The position numbers and the translations under genes were made by a program. Source: Burkholderia seminalis DSM 23518 (GTDB lineage: Bacteria > Pseudomonadota > Gammaproteobacteria > Burkholderiales > Burkholderiaceae). Taken from it: a stretch of 64,000 bases of DNA. Positions 1,730 to 7,308 of the stretch are shown here, in pieces; the stretch's first letter is position 1, and each line of letters starts with the position of its first letter. The DNA lies in assembly GCF_902832885.1 (NCBI RefSeq), contig NZ_CADFDK010000002.1:620001-684000 (forward strand). The letters run 5' to 3'. The notes below the pieces were generated by a model. The model worked only from the letters and a program-made list of their open reading frames with translations. It made no database searches and was not told where the DNA came from.

Positions 1730-2545
1730 TCATCGGCTGTCGACCACGTCGCGCAGGAACGTATCGAGCGTCGCCACGTCGCCCCACGGCCGCTTGTATG
1801 CGCGATCGTGTTCCGCATCGGCGAGCATCGACTCGACGAGCGCGTGGATCGCGGGCCGGCGCGGCCCGTACTCGCTTTCGTTCGCGCGCATCTTCAGTGC
1901 GAGCAATGCATCGAGTTCCGCGCGCACCGCCGGCTCGTGCACGGTGCCTTCGACGAGATCCGCGAAGCGCATCGGCGGCATGCCGAGCCCCATGTCGATC
2001 CAGCGCACCGCGAGCAGCGGCCGCAGTACGTACAGGTACTTCTTGTAACGCACCGTGTCGCCTTGCAGATAGCCGCGAAAGTTCTTCTTCGCCATCGCAA
2101 GGTAGTGGTGGCGTCCGCGCACCGGAGAGAAGAACGCCGCCGCCAGCGACCGCAGTCGCGGCGCCCAGCGCGCGTCTTCGCGATACACGACCGGCGAGTC
2201 GAGCCATTCGAGCAGCGTGGGATTCGAGCGGCGCAGCAGTTGCAATGCCTTGCGCAGCTCCCAGCCGCTCACGTCGAGTTCGTCGTCGAGCGGCCGTTCG
2301 ATCACGTCGCGTCGCGCTTCGACGCTCAGGTACCAGTCGCGCCGGTGCACATACACGAAGCGGACGTCGTAGTCGCTGTCCGGCGACGCGAACCCCCAGC
2401 CGCGGCTGCCCGATTCGCACGCGAACAGGACGCTCACATCGTGGCGACGCTCGACTTCCGCGAGTTCCGCCATCACGCGCGCCCGCACGGCCGGGGCGAC
2501 CGGGTGCGCGCTGCGCACGGGCGTCAGGTTTTTTTCCGTTTTCAT
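1730..2545 (-). CDS. YcgL-type (COG3541) nucleotidyltransferase of the RNA-repair operon
   Basis: A 271-residue protein of the DNA polymerase beta-like nucleotidyltransferase superfamily. GSRGWG at residues 46-51, then SDYDVRF with D58 and D60, is the minimal NTase signature (G-S, then two metal-binding aspartates). Related proteins recur next to rtcB in RNA-repair operons, so a role in adding a nucleotide to, or resealing, damaged RNA is inferred; no substrate is proven. The ATG at 2545 follows the RtcB stop codon by 55 bp in the same direction, so co-transcription is likely. An upstream in-frame start at 2596 would overlap the end of rtcB and gives a low-information extension. Confidence 0.85.
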   Translation of the reverse strand: MKTEKNLTPVRSAHPVAPAVRARVMAELAEVERRHDVSVLFACESGSRGWGFASPDSDYDVRFVYVHRRDWYLSVEARRDVIERPLDDELDVSGWELRKALQLLRRSNPTLLEWLDSPVVYREDARWAPRLRSLAAAFFSPVRGRHHYLAMAKKNFRGYLQGDTVRYKKYLYVLRPLLAVRWIDMGLGMPPMRFADLVEGTVHEPAVRAELDALLALKMRANESEYGPRRPAIHALVESMLADAEHDRAYKRPWGDVATLDTFLRDVVDSR

Positions 2546-2600
2546 GATTGTCGTTTCCGTTTCGTTGCGCGCGGCCGCCGGCCATCGGCCGCGCACCGCG

Positions 2601-3824
2601 CTATCCTTTCACGCACACCACCTGGCGCAGCGTGTGCACCACTTCGACGAGGCTGCGCTGGGCCGCCATCACCGCGTCGATGTCCTTGTAGGCCATCGGG
2701 ATTTCGTCGACGACGCCCGCGTCCTTCCGGCATTCGACGCCCTGGGTGGCCTTGACCTGGTCGTCGGCCGTGAAGCGGCGCTTCGCTTCGGTGCGGCTCA
2801 TCGTCCGGCCCGCGCCGTGGCTACACGAGCAGAAGCTTTCCGGGTTGCCGAGCCCGCGCACGATGAAGCTTTTCGCGCCCATCGAGCCCGGGATGATCCC
2901 CAGTTGCCCCTTCTGCGCGGACACCGCCCCCTTGCGCGTCACGAGCACGTCTTCGCCGAAGTGGCGTTCGCGCTGCACGTAGTTGTGGTGACAGTTCACC
3001 GCGTGTTCTTCGAGCGCGAACGGCTTCGCGATCACGCCGCGTGCTGCCGCGATCACCGCGTCCATCATCGCCTGCCGGTTGCGCCGCGCGTAGTCCTGCG
3101 CCCAGCCGACGGCCTCGACGTAATCGTCGAAGTGCCGGCTGCCTTCGGTGAAATACGCGAGGTTGCGGTCCGGCAGGTTCGCGATGTGCTGGCGCATGTC
3201 GGCCTGCGCGAGTTCGATGAACAGGCTGCCGATCGCATTGCCGACGCCGCGCGAGCCGCTGTGCAGCATGAACCACACGTGGTCCGCTTCGTCGACGCAC
3301 ACTTCGATGAAGTGATTGCCGGTGCCGAGCGTGCCGAGATGCGCGTAGTGGTTCGTCTTTTCCAGCTTCGGATACTTGTCGACGATCCGCTGGAAGCCCG
3401 GCTGCAGCGACTTCCACGAGTCGGTCACGGCGGCCGGCGTGCGATCGCCCCACGCGCCGGGATCGCGGCGCCCGGGCGCGCGGCCGTGCGGTACCGCGCG
3501 TTCGATCGCGCCGCGCAGCCCCGCGAGCGAATCCGGCAGATCCGACGCCGTCAGCGTCGTGCGCGCGGCCATCATCCCGCAGCCGATGTCGACGCCGACC
3601 GCGGCCGGGATGATCGCGCCCTTCGTCGGAATCACGCTGCCGATCGTCGACCCCTTGCCGAGGTGGACGTCCGGCATCACCGCGATGTGGCGGAAGACGA
3701 ACGGCATCTGCGCGGTGTTGCGCAACTGCGCGCGCGCTTCGTCCTCGACGGCGACGCCTTGCGTCCACATCTTCACCGGCTTGCCGTTGGCCAGTTCCAT
3801 CACCTGATAGTCCATGTTGCTCAT
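2601..3824 (-). CDS. rtcB: RNA-splicing ligase RtcB (3'-phosphate / 5'-OH ligase)
   Basis: A 407-residue protein, the normal RtcB length. RtcB joins RNA 2',3'-cyclic-phosphate or 3'-phosphate ends to 5'-OH ends using GTP and Mn2+. Visible landmarks are VDIGCG (metal ligand C82), GTGNHFIE at 168-175, LHSGSRG with H188, CHHNY near 279-282, and SHGAGR with H336, the histidine that becomes guanylylated. The start at 3824 is supported by AGGTGA six bases upstream; a slightly earlier in-frame ATG at 3842 is possible. It lies 62 bp after the slipin gene in the sigma54-controlled operon. No rtcA (RNA cyclase) gene is present. The operon probably answers RNA damage such as toxin-cleaved tRNA. Confidence 0.97.
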   Translation of the reverse strand: MSNMDYQVMELANGKPVKMWTQGVAVEDEARAQLRNTAQMPFVFRHIAVMPDVHLGKGSTIGSVIPTKGAIIPAAVGVDIGCGMMAARTTLTASDLPDSLAGLRGAIERAVPHGRAPGRRDPGAWGDRTPAAVTDSWKSLQPGFQRIVDKYPKLEKTNHYAHLGTLGTGNHFIEVCVDEADHVWFMLHSGSRGVGNAIGSLFIELAQADMRQHIANLPDRNLAYFTEGSRHFDDYVEAVGWAQDYARRNRQAMMDAVIAAARGVIAKPFALEEHAVNCHHNYVQRERHFGEDVLVTRKGAVSAQKGQLGIIPGSMGAKSFIVRGLGNPESFCSCSHGAGRTMSRTEAKRRFTADDQVKATQGVECRKDAGVVDEIPMAYKDIDAVMAAQRSLVEVVHTLRQVVCVKG

Positions 3825-3886: not shown

Positions 3887-5026
3887 TTACGTGCCCTTGA
3901 TGCTGACGAGTCCGTTCAGCACCTGGTCGAGACCGCCGAACACCGAGATGCGGTCGATCCGTTCCGCGACGCGCTCGAGCGTTTCCAGCTCCTTGAGCCG
4001 CAGCGCGGTCGGGTTTTCCTCCATCACCTTCGCGGTGTTCAGCAGCGAACGCGTGGCCGCCGTTTCCTCGCGGCGGCGAATCACGTTCGCCTGGGCGGAT
4101 TTCTCCGCTTCGACCACCTGCGCGAGGATCGTCTTCATGTCGCCCGGCAGCACGATGTCCTTCACGCCGACGCTGCGCACGTCCACGCCCGAATCGCCGA
4201 GACGGGCGCGCACCTGCGCGATCACGACCGCGTCGATCGACTGCTTGTCCTCCAGCAGCTCGTCGAGCGAGCGTGTGCCGACCGCCGAGCGCAGCGCGAA
4301 CTGCAGCTCGCGATACAAGTGCTCGACCGGTTTTTGCAGCTGGCCGAACGCATGCAGCACGTCCGCGTAACACCACGTCGCCGACAGGTTCAGCCGCAGC
4401 GCAACCTTGTCGCGCGTCAGGATTTCCTGCCCGCCGACTTCGATCGCCTGCAGGCGCAGATCGACGAGTTCGACCGCGACGTCGCGGTTGAAGCGCCAGA
4501 ACGCCGACGTACCCGCGTCCAGCAACCGCTCGATCTTGCCGTCGATCTTCAGCACGCCGACGTGGTACGCCGGCACCTGCGCCACCAGCACGCCCGTCAG
4601 GCCCGCCACGCCGCGCGCCCGCAGCGCCGGTTGCGCGATGCGTTTGACGAGCGCGGCCGGCAGCATGCTGTCCTGCGTGAGATCGACGCGTTCGAGACGA
4701 TGCGCGGCCAGGCCGCGCCAGTACAGCCGGCGCGTGCCCGGTGCCAGGATCTCGACGAGCACGTCGTCTTCATAGCGCAGGCCCGCTTCGTCGTCGGCGA
4801 GATCCATCGCGACGAAGTATCGCGCGAGCACGTCGGGCGCGTCGTGGCGCAGATAGTCGGCCAGCGCGGTGTCGGCGAGCGGCGCGTCGAGACGCGCGGT
4901 CTGCACCGACAGACGCTTGAACGGATCGAAGGCCTTGAACACGCCCGGTTCCAGCACCTTCACGAAATCGCCTTCGCTCATCAGCAGCGCGCGTTCGTTC
5001 TTTTTCACTACATGACGCTTCCACAT
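3887..5026 (-). CDS. Slipin / SPFH (band-7) family protein, first gene of rtcB operon
   Basis: A 379-residue slipin. Its N-terminus MWKRHVVKKNERALLMSEG is followed by paired beta-rich segments and then the SPFH core with LVDLRLQAIEVGGQEILTRD and RLGDSGVDVRSVGVKDIVLPGDM. The C-terminus is a charged helical region (VEAEKSAQANVIRRREETAATRSLLNTA by parts). The N-terminus has no clear transmembrane helix, unlike classical slipins, so it may be soluble or peripheral. The start at 5026 follows AAAGGAC on the minus strand. A longer open frame reaching 5431 runs through tRNA-like RNA sequence and is not coding. Linkage of slipins with rtcB recurs in bacteria, but the mechanism is unknown. Confidence 0.9.
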   Translation of the reverse strand: MWKRHVVKKNERALLMSEGDFVKVLEPGVFKAFDPFKRLSVQTARLDAPLADTALADYLRHDAPDVLARYFVAMDLADDEAGLRYEDDVLVEILAPGTRRLYWRGLAAHRLERVDLTQDSMLPAALVKRIAQPALRARGVAGLTGVLVAQVPAYHVGVLKIDGKIERLLDAGTSAFWRFNRDVAVELVDLRLQAIEVGGQEILTRDKVALRLNLSATWCYADVLHAFGQLQKPVEHLYRELQFALRSAVGTRSLDELLEDKQSIDAVVIAQVRARLGDSGVDVRSVGVKDIVLPGDMKTILAQVVEAEKSAQANVIRRREETAATRSLLNTAKVMEENPTALRLKELETLERVAERIDRISVFGGLDQVLNGLVSIKGT

Positions 5027-5220
5027 ATTTTTGTCCTTTTTTTCAACGACCGCCGGATCGCGCATCGTGCGGATCGCGGTGCGACGCAACCGGGCGGACG
5101 GCGCGCTGGCCGGCGCCGACGCACACGGTGACGCATCCTGCATCGCGTCGTCGTGCGCATTCGCGCGGGCCATGCGGCCGCCCGGCCGATCGCGCGGAAC
5201 CGCAACCGGTCCGACGCGCG

Positions 5221-5238
5221 GCGGGCCTGTCGGCCCGC
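5221..5238 (-). other. Perfect 7-bp hairpin in the rtcB-operon leader
   Basis: GCGGGCC - GACA - GGCCCGC on the minus strand is a perfect stem-loop downstream of the tRNA-like elements and about 195 bases before the slipin start codon. It is not followed by a T-run, so it is more likely part of a structured leader than a terminator. Confidence 0.5.
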
Positions 5239-5266
5239 ACCGGCGGGTACTGCTTTCATCACGAGA

Positions 5267-5282
5267 CTGTCCTTGCGGACAG
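5267..5282 (-). other. GCAA-capped hairpin directly after the tRNA-like RNA
   Basis: On the minus strand CTGTCC - GCAA - GGACAG forms a perfect 6-bp stem with a GNRA tetraloop. It begins one base after the 3' acceptor strand of the tRNA-like element at 5284-5353. The position suggests a processing boundary or a stable 3' cap on the structured RNA. Confidence 0.55.
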
Positions 5283-5283
5283 G

Positions 5284-5353
5284 GTTCGAGCGGGATTCGA
5301 ACCCGCCACCGGCCGGCTTTCGCCGGCTGCTCCACCTGACTGAGCTTCCGAAC
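5284..5353 (-). ncRNA. tRNA-like RNA element with GAAA hairpin replacing the anticodon arm
   Basis: A 70-nt element in the predicted leader of the rtcB operon, read on the minus strand. It has an acceptor of six pairs (GTTCGG with TCGAAC, one G-U), a two-base AA linker, a D-arm GCTC-AGTCAGGTG-GAGC with the conserved GG, and a single A. A perfect hairpin GCCGGC-GAAA-GCCGGC follows where the anticodon arm should be. Then come a five-base variable region and a textbook T-arm GCGGG-TTCGAAT-CCCGC. The GG of the D-loop and TTC of the T-loop could form a normal tRNA elbow. There is no anticodon loop, no T8 and no encoded CCA, so it cannot decode. It resembles in concept the tRNA-mimicking Y RNAs linked to RNA-repair operons, but no Rsr (Ro60-like) gene is visible. 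Confidence 0.8.
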
Positions 5354-5356
5354 GAC

Positions 5357-5403
5357 GGGCGCTCCGGGATTCGAACCCGGACGAGGCATCCTGGCGCGCG
5401 CCC
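5357..5403 (-). ncRNA. Second tRNA-like element: T-arm / acceptor minihelix
   Basis: On the minus strand, GGGCGC (5403-5398) can pair with GCGCCC (5362-5357), enclosing 16 unpaired bases and a perfect T-arm CCGGG-TTCGAAT-CCCGG (a sixth T-A pair is possible). This is the top half of a tRNA without D-arm or anticodon arm. It lies directly upstream in the transcript of the fuller tRNA-like element, separated by three bases. Two canonical TTCGAAT T-loops side by side argue against chance. Its 5' boundary is uncertain. Confidence 0.65.
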
Positions 5404-5526
5404 CTTTGCCTTCATCTGTCCATGGCGGCATGCGCTGCCGCGACGAACGAGGTTCGGCGGCGGCGCACCAGCAGGGCGTGTGAACCCTGGCTCGCGGGCC
5501 AGCGGGACATCCGGCGTCTTCTATTT

Positions 5527-5542
5527 AGCGAGGAGCGTGCCA
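5527..5542 (-). promoter_or_regulatory. Sigma54 (-24/-12) promoter of the slipin-rtcB operon
   Basis: On the minus strand TGGCACG-CTCC-TCGCT matches the sigma54 consensus TGGCACG-N4-TTGCW with one mismatch, with GG and GC exactly ten bases apart. Transcription would start near 5515 and give a leader of about 490 bases containing both tRNA-like elements before the slipin gene. The divergent gene encodes the matching sigma54 activator RtcR. Confidence 0.85.
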
Positions 5543-5567
5543 GTGGCTGCCTTGATGCTCGAATAAT

Positions 5568-5691: not shown

Positions 5692-7308
5692 ATGCGCAAG
5701 ACCGTCGCGATCGGTTTTCTCGGCACCGTGCTGGACCAGGGCGGCCGCGCGCCGCGCCGTTACCGCAAATGGCGGCCGACGATTTCGCTGTGCGAGCAGC
5801 CCGACCTGCCGATCGACCGGCTCGAACTGCTGCATGCGCCGGGCTACACGCGTCTCGCCCACCAGGTGCGGGACGATCTCGCGCGCCTGTCGCCGCATAC
5901 CGACGTGCGGCTCGTGCCGGTCACGATCCACGATCCGTGGGATTTCGAGGAGGTCTACGCGACGCTGCACGACTACGCACGCGCGTATCCGTTCGACCTC
6001 GAGCATGAGGATTACCTGATCCACATCACGACCGGCACGCACGTCGCGCAGATCTGCTGGTTCCTGCTGGCGGAGGCGCGCTACCTGCCCGCGCGCCTCG
6101 TGCAGACGGGGCCGCCGCAGCGGACCGACGAAGGGCCGAGCGGGCCGGGCACGATATCGGTGATCGACCTCGACCTGTCGCGCTACAACCGCATCGCGCA
6201 GCGCTTCACGCGCGAGCGCGACGAAACGGTGTCGTTCCTGAAGGCCGGCATCGCAACGCGCAACGCGCGCTTCAATGCGCTGATCGAGCAACTGGAGCGC
6301 GTCGCCGTGCGGTCGCGCGCGCCGATGCTGCTGGTCGGGCCGACGGGCGCCGGCAAATCGTTTCTCGCGAAGCGCGTGTACGAGCTGAAGCGCGGCCGCC
6401 ATCGGCTCGCGGGGGCGTTCATCGAGATCAACTGCGCGACGCTGCGCGGCGACGCGGCGATGTCGACGCTGTTCGGTCACGTGAAGGGCGCGTTCACGGG
6501 CGCGCAGTCGGCACGGGCGGGGCTGCTGCGCGCGGCCGACGGCGGGCTGCTGTTCCTCGACGAAATCGGCGAACTCGGGCTCGACGAGCAGGCGATGCTG
6601 CTGAAGGCGATCGAGGAGAAGCGCTTCCTGCCGGTCGGCGCGGACGTCGAGGCGAGCAGCGATTTCGAGTTGATCGCGGGCACGCATCGCGACCTGCGGC
6701 AGATGGTGGCGGCCGGCACGTTCCGCGAGGATCTCTATGCGCGGATCAATCTGTGGACGTACGAATTGCCGGGACTGGCCGAGCGCCGCGAGGACATCGA
6801 GCCGAACCTCGAATTCGAACTCGACCGTTTCGGCCGCGAGCAGGGCGAGCAGGTGCGATTCAACGTGGAGGCGAAGCGGCGCTATCTCGCGTTCGCGGCG
6901 TCCCCGCGCGCGGTGTGGGCCGGCAACTTCCGCGAACTGTCGGCCTCGGTCACGCGGATGGCGACGCTGGCCGATGCGGGGCGGATTACCGAGGCACTCG
7001 CCGAGCAGGAAGTCGAGCGGTTGACGCGCACCTGGTCGTCGCCGCGCGACGCGGGCGCGGCCGACCCGTGCGTCGACGCGGTGTTCGGTGCGCGCGCCGC
7101 GGATCTCGACCTGTTCGACCGTGCGCAGCTCGAACGCGTGCTCGACGTGTGCCGCGCGTCGGCGAGCCTGTCGGAGGCGGGGCGCACGCTGTTCGCGGTG
7201 TCGCGGCGGAGCAAGAAGCAACCGAACGATGCGGACCGGCTGCGCAAGTATCTCGCGCGGTTCGGGCTCGATTGGGAGGCGGTGCGGCAGGCGCTTGACG
7301 CGGCATGA
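5692..7308 (+). CDS. rtcR: Sigma54-dependent transcriptional activator RtcR
   Basis: A 538-residue regulator. The N-terminal ~180 residues match the RtcR CARF-like sensor (HITTGTHVAQICWFLLAEA at 111-129). The central AAA+ domain has Walker A GPTGAGKS (216-223), the sigma54-contacting GAFTGA (266-271) and Walker B LLFLDE (286-291). A C-terminal helix-turn-helix follows. In characterised systems RtcR is relieved of self-inhibition by RNA with 2',3'-cyclic-phosphate ends and switches on rtcB transcription. Here it is divergent from the slipin-rtcB operon and separated from it by a sigma54 promoter and dyads. The ATG at 5692 has only a weak Shine-Dalgarno (GAG). Confidence 0.95.
   Translation: MRKTVAIGFLGTVLDQGGRAPRRYRKWRPTISLCEQPDLPIDRLELLHAPGYTRLAHQVRDDLARLSPHTDVRLVPVTIHDPWDFEEVYATLHDYARAYPFDLEHEDYLIHITTGTHVAQICWFLLAEARYLPARLVQTGPPQRTDEGPSGPGTISVIDLDLSRYNRIAQRFTRERDETVSFLKAGIATRNARFNALIEQLERVAVRSRAPMLLVGPTGAGKSFLAKRVYELKRGRHRLAGAFIEINCATLRGDAAMSTLFGHVKGAFTGAQSARAGLLRAADGGLLFLDEIGELGLDEQAMLLKAIEEKRFLPVGADVEASSDFELIAGTHRDLRQMVAAGTFREDLYARINLWTYELPGLAERREDIEPNLEFELDRFGREQGEQVRFNVEAKRRYLAFAASPRAVWAGNFRELSASVTRMATLADAGRITEALAEQEVERLTRTWSSPRDAGAADPCVDAVFGARAADLDLFDRAQLERVLDVCRASASLSEAGRTLFAVSRRSKKQPNDADRLRKYLARFGLDWEAVRQALDAA

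Follow-up and report, generated by a model that had tools for sequence, protein, structure and literature searches.

The leader of an RNA repair operon in Burkholderia seminalis DSM 23518 encodes a tRNA-like element in which a short hairpin takes the place of the anticodon arm, which raises the question of what this element belongs to and which protein it serves. The window, that is the whole stretch of DNA analysed here, comprises 64,000 nucleotides. Comparison with homologous loci suggests that the element, called unit B below, is probably the 3' member of a pair of tRNA mimics within a noncoding RNA that partners the adjacent slipin.

The operon lies on the minus strand and begins with slipin (3887..5026), in which two N-terminal repeats, an SPFH/Band-7 domain and a C-terminal region were recognised from Pfam Band_7 (E 2.7e-26), hydropathy and repeat analysis. 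It continues with the RNA ligase gene rtcB (2601..3824; ORF end computed, start codon assigned by eye) and RlaP (1730..2596), an 'RNA repair pathway DNA polymerase beta family' protein (Pfam PF10127, E 5.1e-97). Divergently, on the plus strand, rtcR (5692..7308) encodes a sigma54 activator with a CARF domain (Pfam RtcR, E 1.2e-81). A putative sigma54 -24/-12-like site, CTGGCACGCTCCTCGCTA (5526..5543, minus strand), was found by direct reading against the -24/-12 consensus, and is kept in 19 aligned leaders. Records of a plasmid collection from B. cenocepacia, B. arboris, B. multivorans and B. stagnalis matched the operon at 87-94%, and the rtcB-matching stretches in two plasmid records are annotated as RtcB family protein. 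An earlier sequence-only reading of this DNA had placed the element in an operon controlled by RtcR and containing rtcB, and this setting was confirmed, with the sigma54-like site at 5543-5526, slipin starting at 5026, rtcB at 3824 and rtcR running divergently from 5692.

Unit B occupies positions 5284..5353 of the minus strand, as indicated by direct reading, ARAGORN, Rfam, folding and alignment. Its acceptor is formed by GTTCGG (5353-5348) with TCGAAC (5289-5284), giving six pairs of which the last is G-U. The D-arm has the stem GCTC/GAGC and a loop holding GG. The position of the anticodon arm is taken by the hairpin GCCGGC-GAAA-GCCGGC (5327-5312), followed by a variable region of five bases, CGGTG, and the T-arm GCGGG-TTCGAAT-CCCGC (5306-5290). 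ARAGORN called 'tRNA-???' over the unit at 5354-5282. The Rfam tRNA model scored the cloverleaf with D-arm and T-arm at 34.4 bits against a gathering score of 29 (E 2.2e-5 in the 701 bases searched, E 5.9e-5 in a whole-genome search); a fast scan of the whole window listed nothing. The folding energy (z -1.53) is weak evidence taken alone. Reading, ARAGORN and Rfam agree with the sequence-only reading on a tRNA mimic with D-arm, T-arm, six-pair acceptor and GAAA hairpin.

An ordinary tRNA gene was considered for unit B and ruled out by its loop and its missing CCA. The unit has a 4-nt GAAA loop, lacks a 7-nt anticodon loop with U33, and carries no encoded CCA after the acceptor; by comparison, 25/25 distinct tRNAs of the same genome, taken from the top 30 of 56 matches, possess the 7-nt loop, U33 and CCA. 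Two more weak tRNA matches were present in this genome, G000:C21:80140-80210 (34.8 bits) and G000:C1:751810-751882 (28.7 bits).

Within Burkholderia, unit B is strongly conserved. The leader was matched in 19 of the 25 genomes of the genus, its own genome counted, and at leader length in 0/16 genomes outside the genus; the best match there, 61 bases in genome G040, corresponds to a tRNA-like unit beside a slipin. These 19 leaders and 10 more from a slipin search gave 29 genus leaders, all of which contain unit B, in 23 distinct sequences. Conservation of the stems in the leaders of relatives, which the earlier reading had made a condition of its proposal, was borne out, 99.8% of the pair cells being kept. 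The hairpin loop is a GNRA tetraloop in 21/23 distinct sequences by eye (exceptions L017 and L042), and the claimed absence of an anticodon loop holds in the genus. That reading had asked for compensatory changes in all four stems. Changes on both sides occurred in three pairs, all within the hairpin, and the covariation score was reached by 0/500 shuffles; the other stems hardly vary inside the genus, so they tell little there. Among 299 genomes of the family slipin was found in 25. Of these, 24 belong to the genus; the remaining one, G054 (62% identity), comes from a different genus, and its leader holds two tandem tRNA-like units with wholly different acceptor sequences (by eye).

Unit B is one part of a larger conserved leader, in which the sigma54-like site is followed by a 5' domain, unit A, unit B and then slipin. 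The 5' domain and unit A went unmentioned in the sequence-only reading. The 5' domain (5413..5515, minus strand), recognised by covariation and by the covariance model R2, begins where the sigma54-like site would start transcription and is predicted to form a three-way junction with P1 (5501-5498/5426-5423), H1 (5489-5472) and P3 (5469-5427). Unit A (5357..5403, minus strand) is a mini tRNA-like unit, identified by reading and alignment, that has the acceptor GGGCGC/GCGCCC and the T-arm CCGGG-TTCGAAT-CCCGG and lacks a D-arm. Rfam scored it as mascRNA at 23.6 bits, under the gathering score of 42.5. Equivalents with other acceptor sequences were found by eye in L108, L112, L129, L199, L202, L203 and L204. 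The order and the sequence of the 5' domain, unit A and unit B are kept in the alignment of 19 relatives.

Directly 3' of unit B, reading, folding and alignment indicate a hairpin CTGTCC-GCAA-GGACAG (5267..5282, minus strand), and similar hairpins occur in L108, L112, L129 and L130 (by eye). A further conserved stretch (5150..5266, minus strand; alignment of 19 leaders) links the tRNA-like units to slipin; consensus folds on small sets of sequences gave no clear structure for this window-type stretch. A coding function of the leader was also considered, as the window has an open frame that runs into slipin, and was rejected, the frame being broken by one- and two-base gaps among the 19 relatives (by eye). 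In L091, L096 and L098 a long-range pairing, GAGGCCCA...TGGGCCTC, encloses the stretch from the tRNA-like units to slipin. Since this pairing frames the stretch before slipin, the RNA may reach about 500 nt.

Structures of the 5' domain were derived for two types, one in leaders like that of the window and one in the middle of operons. The mid-operon type has 25 pairs, of which 93% are kept and 15 changed on both sides among 12 loci; the window type has 16 pairs, with 97.2% of the cells paired and 7 pairs changed on both sides among 11 sequences. For both types the covariation score was reached by 0/500 shuffles, a comparison that favours the structures, the mid-operon one being a consensus of the counted sequences and the window-type one drawn by hand from them. 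Both fold into a three-way junction with a hairpin loop that usually begins with UUC and a stem that follows the pattern GGYRC...GUAYNCC. Rfam gave no match to the 5' domain in the window (E<=5), L091 or L071.

Covariance models of the two types were used to search genomes. Model R1, built from 12 mid-operon RtcR loci, matched 8 of the 369 genomes sampled from the class, and in 8/8 the match is followed by one or more T-arm units and a slipin homologue. Model R2, built from window-type sequences, gave 15 matches in 14 of the 349 genomes of the order. Twelve of these, which include the window itself and one genus relative, have E <= 2.5e-4, and each has units and slipin behind it; neither follows the other three matches (E 4.3e-4 to 0.0098), which are the weakest and probably due to chance. 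R1 misses the 5' domain of the window and recovers 2/13 gamma leaders, and R2 misses the gamma and mid-operon types. Because the models do not find each other's types, grouping the types as one domain rests on the shared layout and motif. A weak R1 match (E 0.65) lies behind rtcB at L102 4254-4354, a locus in which slipin was not found, and is possibly a decayed module or chance.

The tRNA-like units were compared across homologues by parsing 52 full units from 41 loci, L075 and L103 being left out. The parser requires a D-arm and a T-arm and favours long stems, and loop sizes may come out too small; 17 further T-arms that it left unparsed are mini units or parser failures, some being full units by eye. 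D-arm and T-arm are near constant across the parsed units, as the parser demands both. The acceptor has 6 or 7 of 7 pairs in 28/52 units and 4 or fewer in 12/52. The hairpin loop has 7 nt in 17/52 units and otherwise 3 to 9 nt, U33 is present in 11 of the 17 units with a 7-nt loop, and CCA follows the discriminator in 13/52. Judged from these units, the elbow of D-arm and T-arm is the lasting part, a working anticodon loop is often lost, and the GAAA loop is a local form, homologue loops ranging from 3 to 9 nt. Given CCA in 13/52 and a 7-nt loop with U33 in 11/52, some homologous units may be working tRNAs. The ordinary-tRNA alternative that the sequence-only reading had named does not apply in the genus, and part of it persists elsewhere in homologues with a 7-nt loop and U33.

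The association of these units with slipin was examined with RtcR as the anchor, a choice without bias toward slipin. RtcR at E <= 1e-60 is present in 12/369 genomes of the class sample. The loci compared (L071-L150) are the best 80 of at least 579 from a scan of named species, a selection and not a census, and include Vibrio, Pseudoalteromonas, Pseudomonas, Rhodocyclaceae, alphaproteobacteria, planctomycetes and others; the upstream sequence of L116 and L132 was too short to judge. A T-arm was counted if it had five pairs, G-U allowed, and lay <=900 nt upstream of a gene start. Among these best 80 loci, 32 have slipin in the divergent operon, and a T-arm lies <=900 nt upstream of slipin in 31 of them. 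The sole exception, L088, lacks a perfect T-arm and by eye has a degenerate form of it. Slipin follows rtcB in 14 of the 32 loci, and 13 of the 14 have their T-arm immediately upstream of slipin. By comparison, only two of 40 leaders with rtcB as the first gene contain a T-arm (L122 and L124), in both cases within ordinary-looking tRNAs. The difference is significant (Fisher p 7e-17), the two sets sharing 14 loci with different positions compared; part of the T-arms counted in the planctomycete loci L103 and L124 belong to ordinary-looking tRNAs. When positions were drawn at random from the 32 slipin loci, 17% had a T-arm within 900 nt.

Operons of the Ro60 type, assigned through Pfam vWA_Ro60 or TROVE in the six operons scanned, show a T-arm in the interval from Ro60 to rtcB in 16/17 cases, and the units inspected by eye are YrlA-like, the T-arm preceding the D-arm. 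Since Ro60 loci carry YrlA-like units and slipin loci carry T-arms, it seems that each of the two proteins, slipin and Ro60, comes with a tRNA-mimic RNA of its own.

The module of 5' domain and units also occurs apart from RtcR and from rtcB. Of the eight genomes found with R1, two have RtcR over the cut-off, and one of the other six (G321) has a weak match below it; RtcB is present in 8/8. Four of the eight (G553, G463, G559 and G669) carry slipin and rtcB near each other on a single contig. At L195 and L193 the module and slipin stand alone between unrelated genes, mutS and adenosine deaminase in the former and murJ and glutamine amidotransferase in the latter, with RtcB on other contigs. 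In G321 slipin is on a 10.7 kb contig and RtcB on a different one, and in G487 the contig ends just behind slipin. On this genomic distribution, RtcR is optional for the module and slipin.

Further tRNA genes were observed around several loci. At least four ARAGORN calls, module units included, were obtained in 6/32 slipin RtcR loci vs 0/48 loci without slipin. Clusters of ordinary-looking tRNAs with differing anticodons are present in or beside the slipin operons of L084, L085, L089, L103, L111, L124, L020, L199, L204 and L205, and look like sets of spare tRNAs. L020 has seven ARAGORN calls beside rtcB and a slipin of 58.6% identity, and in L199, L204 and L205 the tRNAs are upstream of the module (by eye). 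The Phycisphaerae RtcR leaders L122, L124 and L103 hold ordinary-looking tRNA genes with Leu, Arg, Pro, Gln, Tyr and Cys calls. In the leader of L061 a YrlA-like unit, T-arm then D-arm, precedes Ro60 in a Ro60-first RtcR operon. In Anabaena, TrcR is reported to repress a tRNA operon, an rtcB and, per an expression table, a slipin gene (PMC10272220).

The slipin of the window is predicted to be soluble. No membrane segment was detected in it, its hydropathy maximum being 1.41 (19-residue Kyte-Doolittle mean), and the N-terminal hydrophobic anchor of membrane-anchored stomatins is absent; the highest value among 28 slipin homologues is 1.84, at residue 205. The closest solved relatives are stomatins (E 8e-33), and the two N-terminal repeats resemble the start of the protein's own SPFH domain (profile probabilities 98.2-98.8). 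Pfam gave no vault family match at E<=10. Longer N-terminal forms were seen in L055 / L057 (G007), L077 and L193, their lengths being 540 and 531 residues and, for a frame that contains an internal duplication, 673 codons, so the number of repeats seems to vary. Mutant work exists on P. aeruginosa SPFH proteins, of which PaFlo8 lies within the rtc locus; the word tRNA is absent from that paper (PMC13086221).

Four other explanations of the units were weighed. The units could serve as tRNA punctuation, that is as signals at which RNase P and RNase Z cut the transcript, thereby defining the 5' end of the slipin-rtcB message and its stability. Tandem tRNA-like units between the promoter and the first gene of the operon in the window, and an acceptor and T-arm that are kept in Burkholderia, speak for this explanation. 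We nevertheless regard it as rather unlikely, as it leaves unexplained the covarying 5' domain, the association of the units with slipin instead of with whichever gene comes first, and the weakly paired acceptors in 12/52 units. A cis-acting leader, in which the 5' domain and units control translation or transcription of slipin in a T-box-like manner or by attenuation, agrees with their position on the same strand upstream of slipin, the T-arms lying some 170-670 nt before the start. This is improbable, because the distance from T-arm to slipin differs widely between groups and the units hold tRNA elbow geometry, unlike a switch.

The units could also act as decoys for, or inhibitors of, toxins that cleave tRNA, anticodon nucleases among them. 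RtcR operons respond when tRNA is damaged (Hughes 2020, PMC7790460; PMC8765455), the same idea was raised for YrlA by Hughes 2020 (PMC7790460), and some slipin loci hold sets of further tRNAs. An anticodon nuclease would find nothing to read in Burkholderia because of the GNRA tetraloop in 21/23 genus sequences, and Hughes 2020 found no YrlA fragments (PMC7790460), which makes a decoy role quite improbable. A role at the CARF domain of RtcR, as its ligand or as a feedback sensor, was the lead favoured by the sequence-only reading. Such a role suits the window, where the unit is within the RtcR-controlled leader, and the 18/32 slipin loci in which slipin is not behind rtcB, but is very improbable given that slipin and its units sit behind rtcB in the other 14 (13 with a perfect T-arm), that 6/8 module genomes have no RtcR over the cut-off, and that T-arm units occur in just 2/40 rtcB-first RtcR leaders.

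The preferred reading is a noncoding RNA partner of slipin. The predicted RNA is composed of a conserved three-way-junction 5' domain and one to three tRNA-like units, and by the alignments and model searches it immediately precedes genes of this slipin family at whatever position they occupy, whether or not RtcR is present. We infer that it binds slipin. RtcR responds to broken tRNA (Hughes 2020, PMC7790460; PMC8765455), and sensing of damaged tRNA would start a transcript near 5516. Enzymes of the RNase P and RNase Z type may trim its tRNA-like units, and the 5' domain would bind slipin, which, without a membrane segment, probably forms a ring or cage like other SPFH proteins. The tRNA-like domain of YrlA is known to bind PNPase and to be modified by DusA and TruB (PMC8394870). 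The mimics of the slipin RNA might recruit or decoy such elbow-gripping enzymes, among them PNPase, TruB or DusA, tRNA nucleases and repair enzymes, and broken tRNA would thereby be sorted to RtcB repair or to decay. Y RNA is thought to serve Ro60 in a comparable way.

More tentatively, slipin and its RNA could constitute a bacterial vault-like or Ro-like particle. The soluble SPFH protein, with its variable N-terminal repeats, would form a ring or cage round its own RNA of some 250-500 nt, which would present two decoding-dead tRNA bodies and gather enzymes of tRNA repair and decay at one place, RtcR and RtcB being add-ons to a two-part unit. Such a particle is possible, and we hold it as a working idea.

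Among known systems, YrlA with Ro60/Rsr (Rfam RF02553) is similar in its RNA-repair operon, in mimicking the tRNA elbow without an anticodon and in its adjacent ring-shaped protein. A Y-RNA-like scaffold fits best of the three options that the sequence-only reading had offered, and Y RNA, as it proposed, is the nearest precedent. However, the tRNA of YrlA is permuted, so that its T-arm precedes its D-arm, and is enclosed by a long stem that binds Ro. The slipin units keep the normal order and are arranged in tandem; their 5' domain differs, and the protein beside them belongs to the SPFH group. In unit B the order is acceptor, D-arm, hairpin and T-arm, the operon (slipin, rtcB, RlaP) contains no Ro60 (TROVE/vWA) gene, and the YrlA model RF02553 scored 21.9 and 18.5 bits in the window vs a gathering score of 69. 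The junction of tandem units (T-arm, acceptor ends, D-arm) resembles YrlA, with 40.4 bits and E 1e-7 at L071 6620-6717 and 18.5 bits at 5329-5381 of the window, and YrlA might have originated from a tandem tRNA-like pair.

Unit B has the cloverleaf, the GG of the D-loop and the T-loop TTCGAAT in common with tRNA genes, and differs from them in lacking an anticodon loop and encoded CCA. Unit A resembles mascRNA, the MEN-beta tRNA-like RNA (RF01684), in combining an acceptor and T-arm with a reduced body; the two are not known to be related. The vault particle, composed of MVP, TEP1 with TROVE, and vault RNA, offers an analogy only. The vault protein has repeats followed by SPFH and no permanent membrane anchor, and the particle has a small RNA partner (PMC13100048, PMC7916137).

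The literature searched on RtcB/RtcR operons, mostly at title level, contains no description of a tRNA-like RNA linked to slipin and no experiment on it; for slipin itself it holds the P. aeruginosa mutants and the Anabaena expression data. The claim of the sequence-only reading that the element had not been described is nevertheless doubtful. A 2016 review by Burroughs and Aravind reportedly describes SPFH/Band-7 RNA-repair modules with a 'novel tRNA-like molecule', and is said to propose this RNA as the cognate of the SPFH protein, next to the Ro60/Y RNA pair. Common to that RNA and the present one is a tRNA-like RNA beside an SPFH gene in an RtcB repair system, and the RNA studied here has the tRNA-like fold and the adjacent SPFH/Band-7 gene of an RtcB system (E 2.7e-26; 31/32 loci). 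Documented here in addition are tandem units, a D-armless unit, a covarying 5' domain, the Burkholderia GNRA hairpin and presence without RtcR or adjacent RtcB. Going by what that review reportedly describes, the kind of RNA is already known, and it is the tandem layout, the D-armless unit and the 5' domain that we would call new. The slipin RNA now has a defined anatomy, two covariance models that find it in genomes, and a prediction, that slipin binds the 5' domain. In RtcB repair operons the RNA-protein companion takes one of two forms, the studied pair of Ro60 and Y RNA, or slipin with the RNA described here. If the reading is correct, tRNA mimicry arose twice around RNA repair and an SPFH protein gains an RNA partner.
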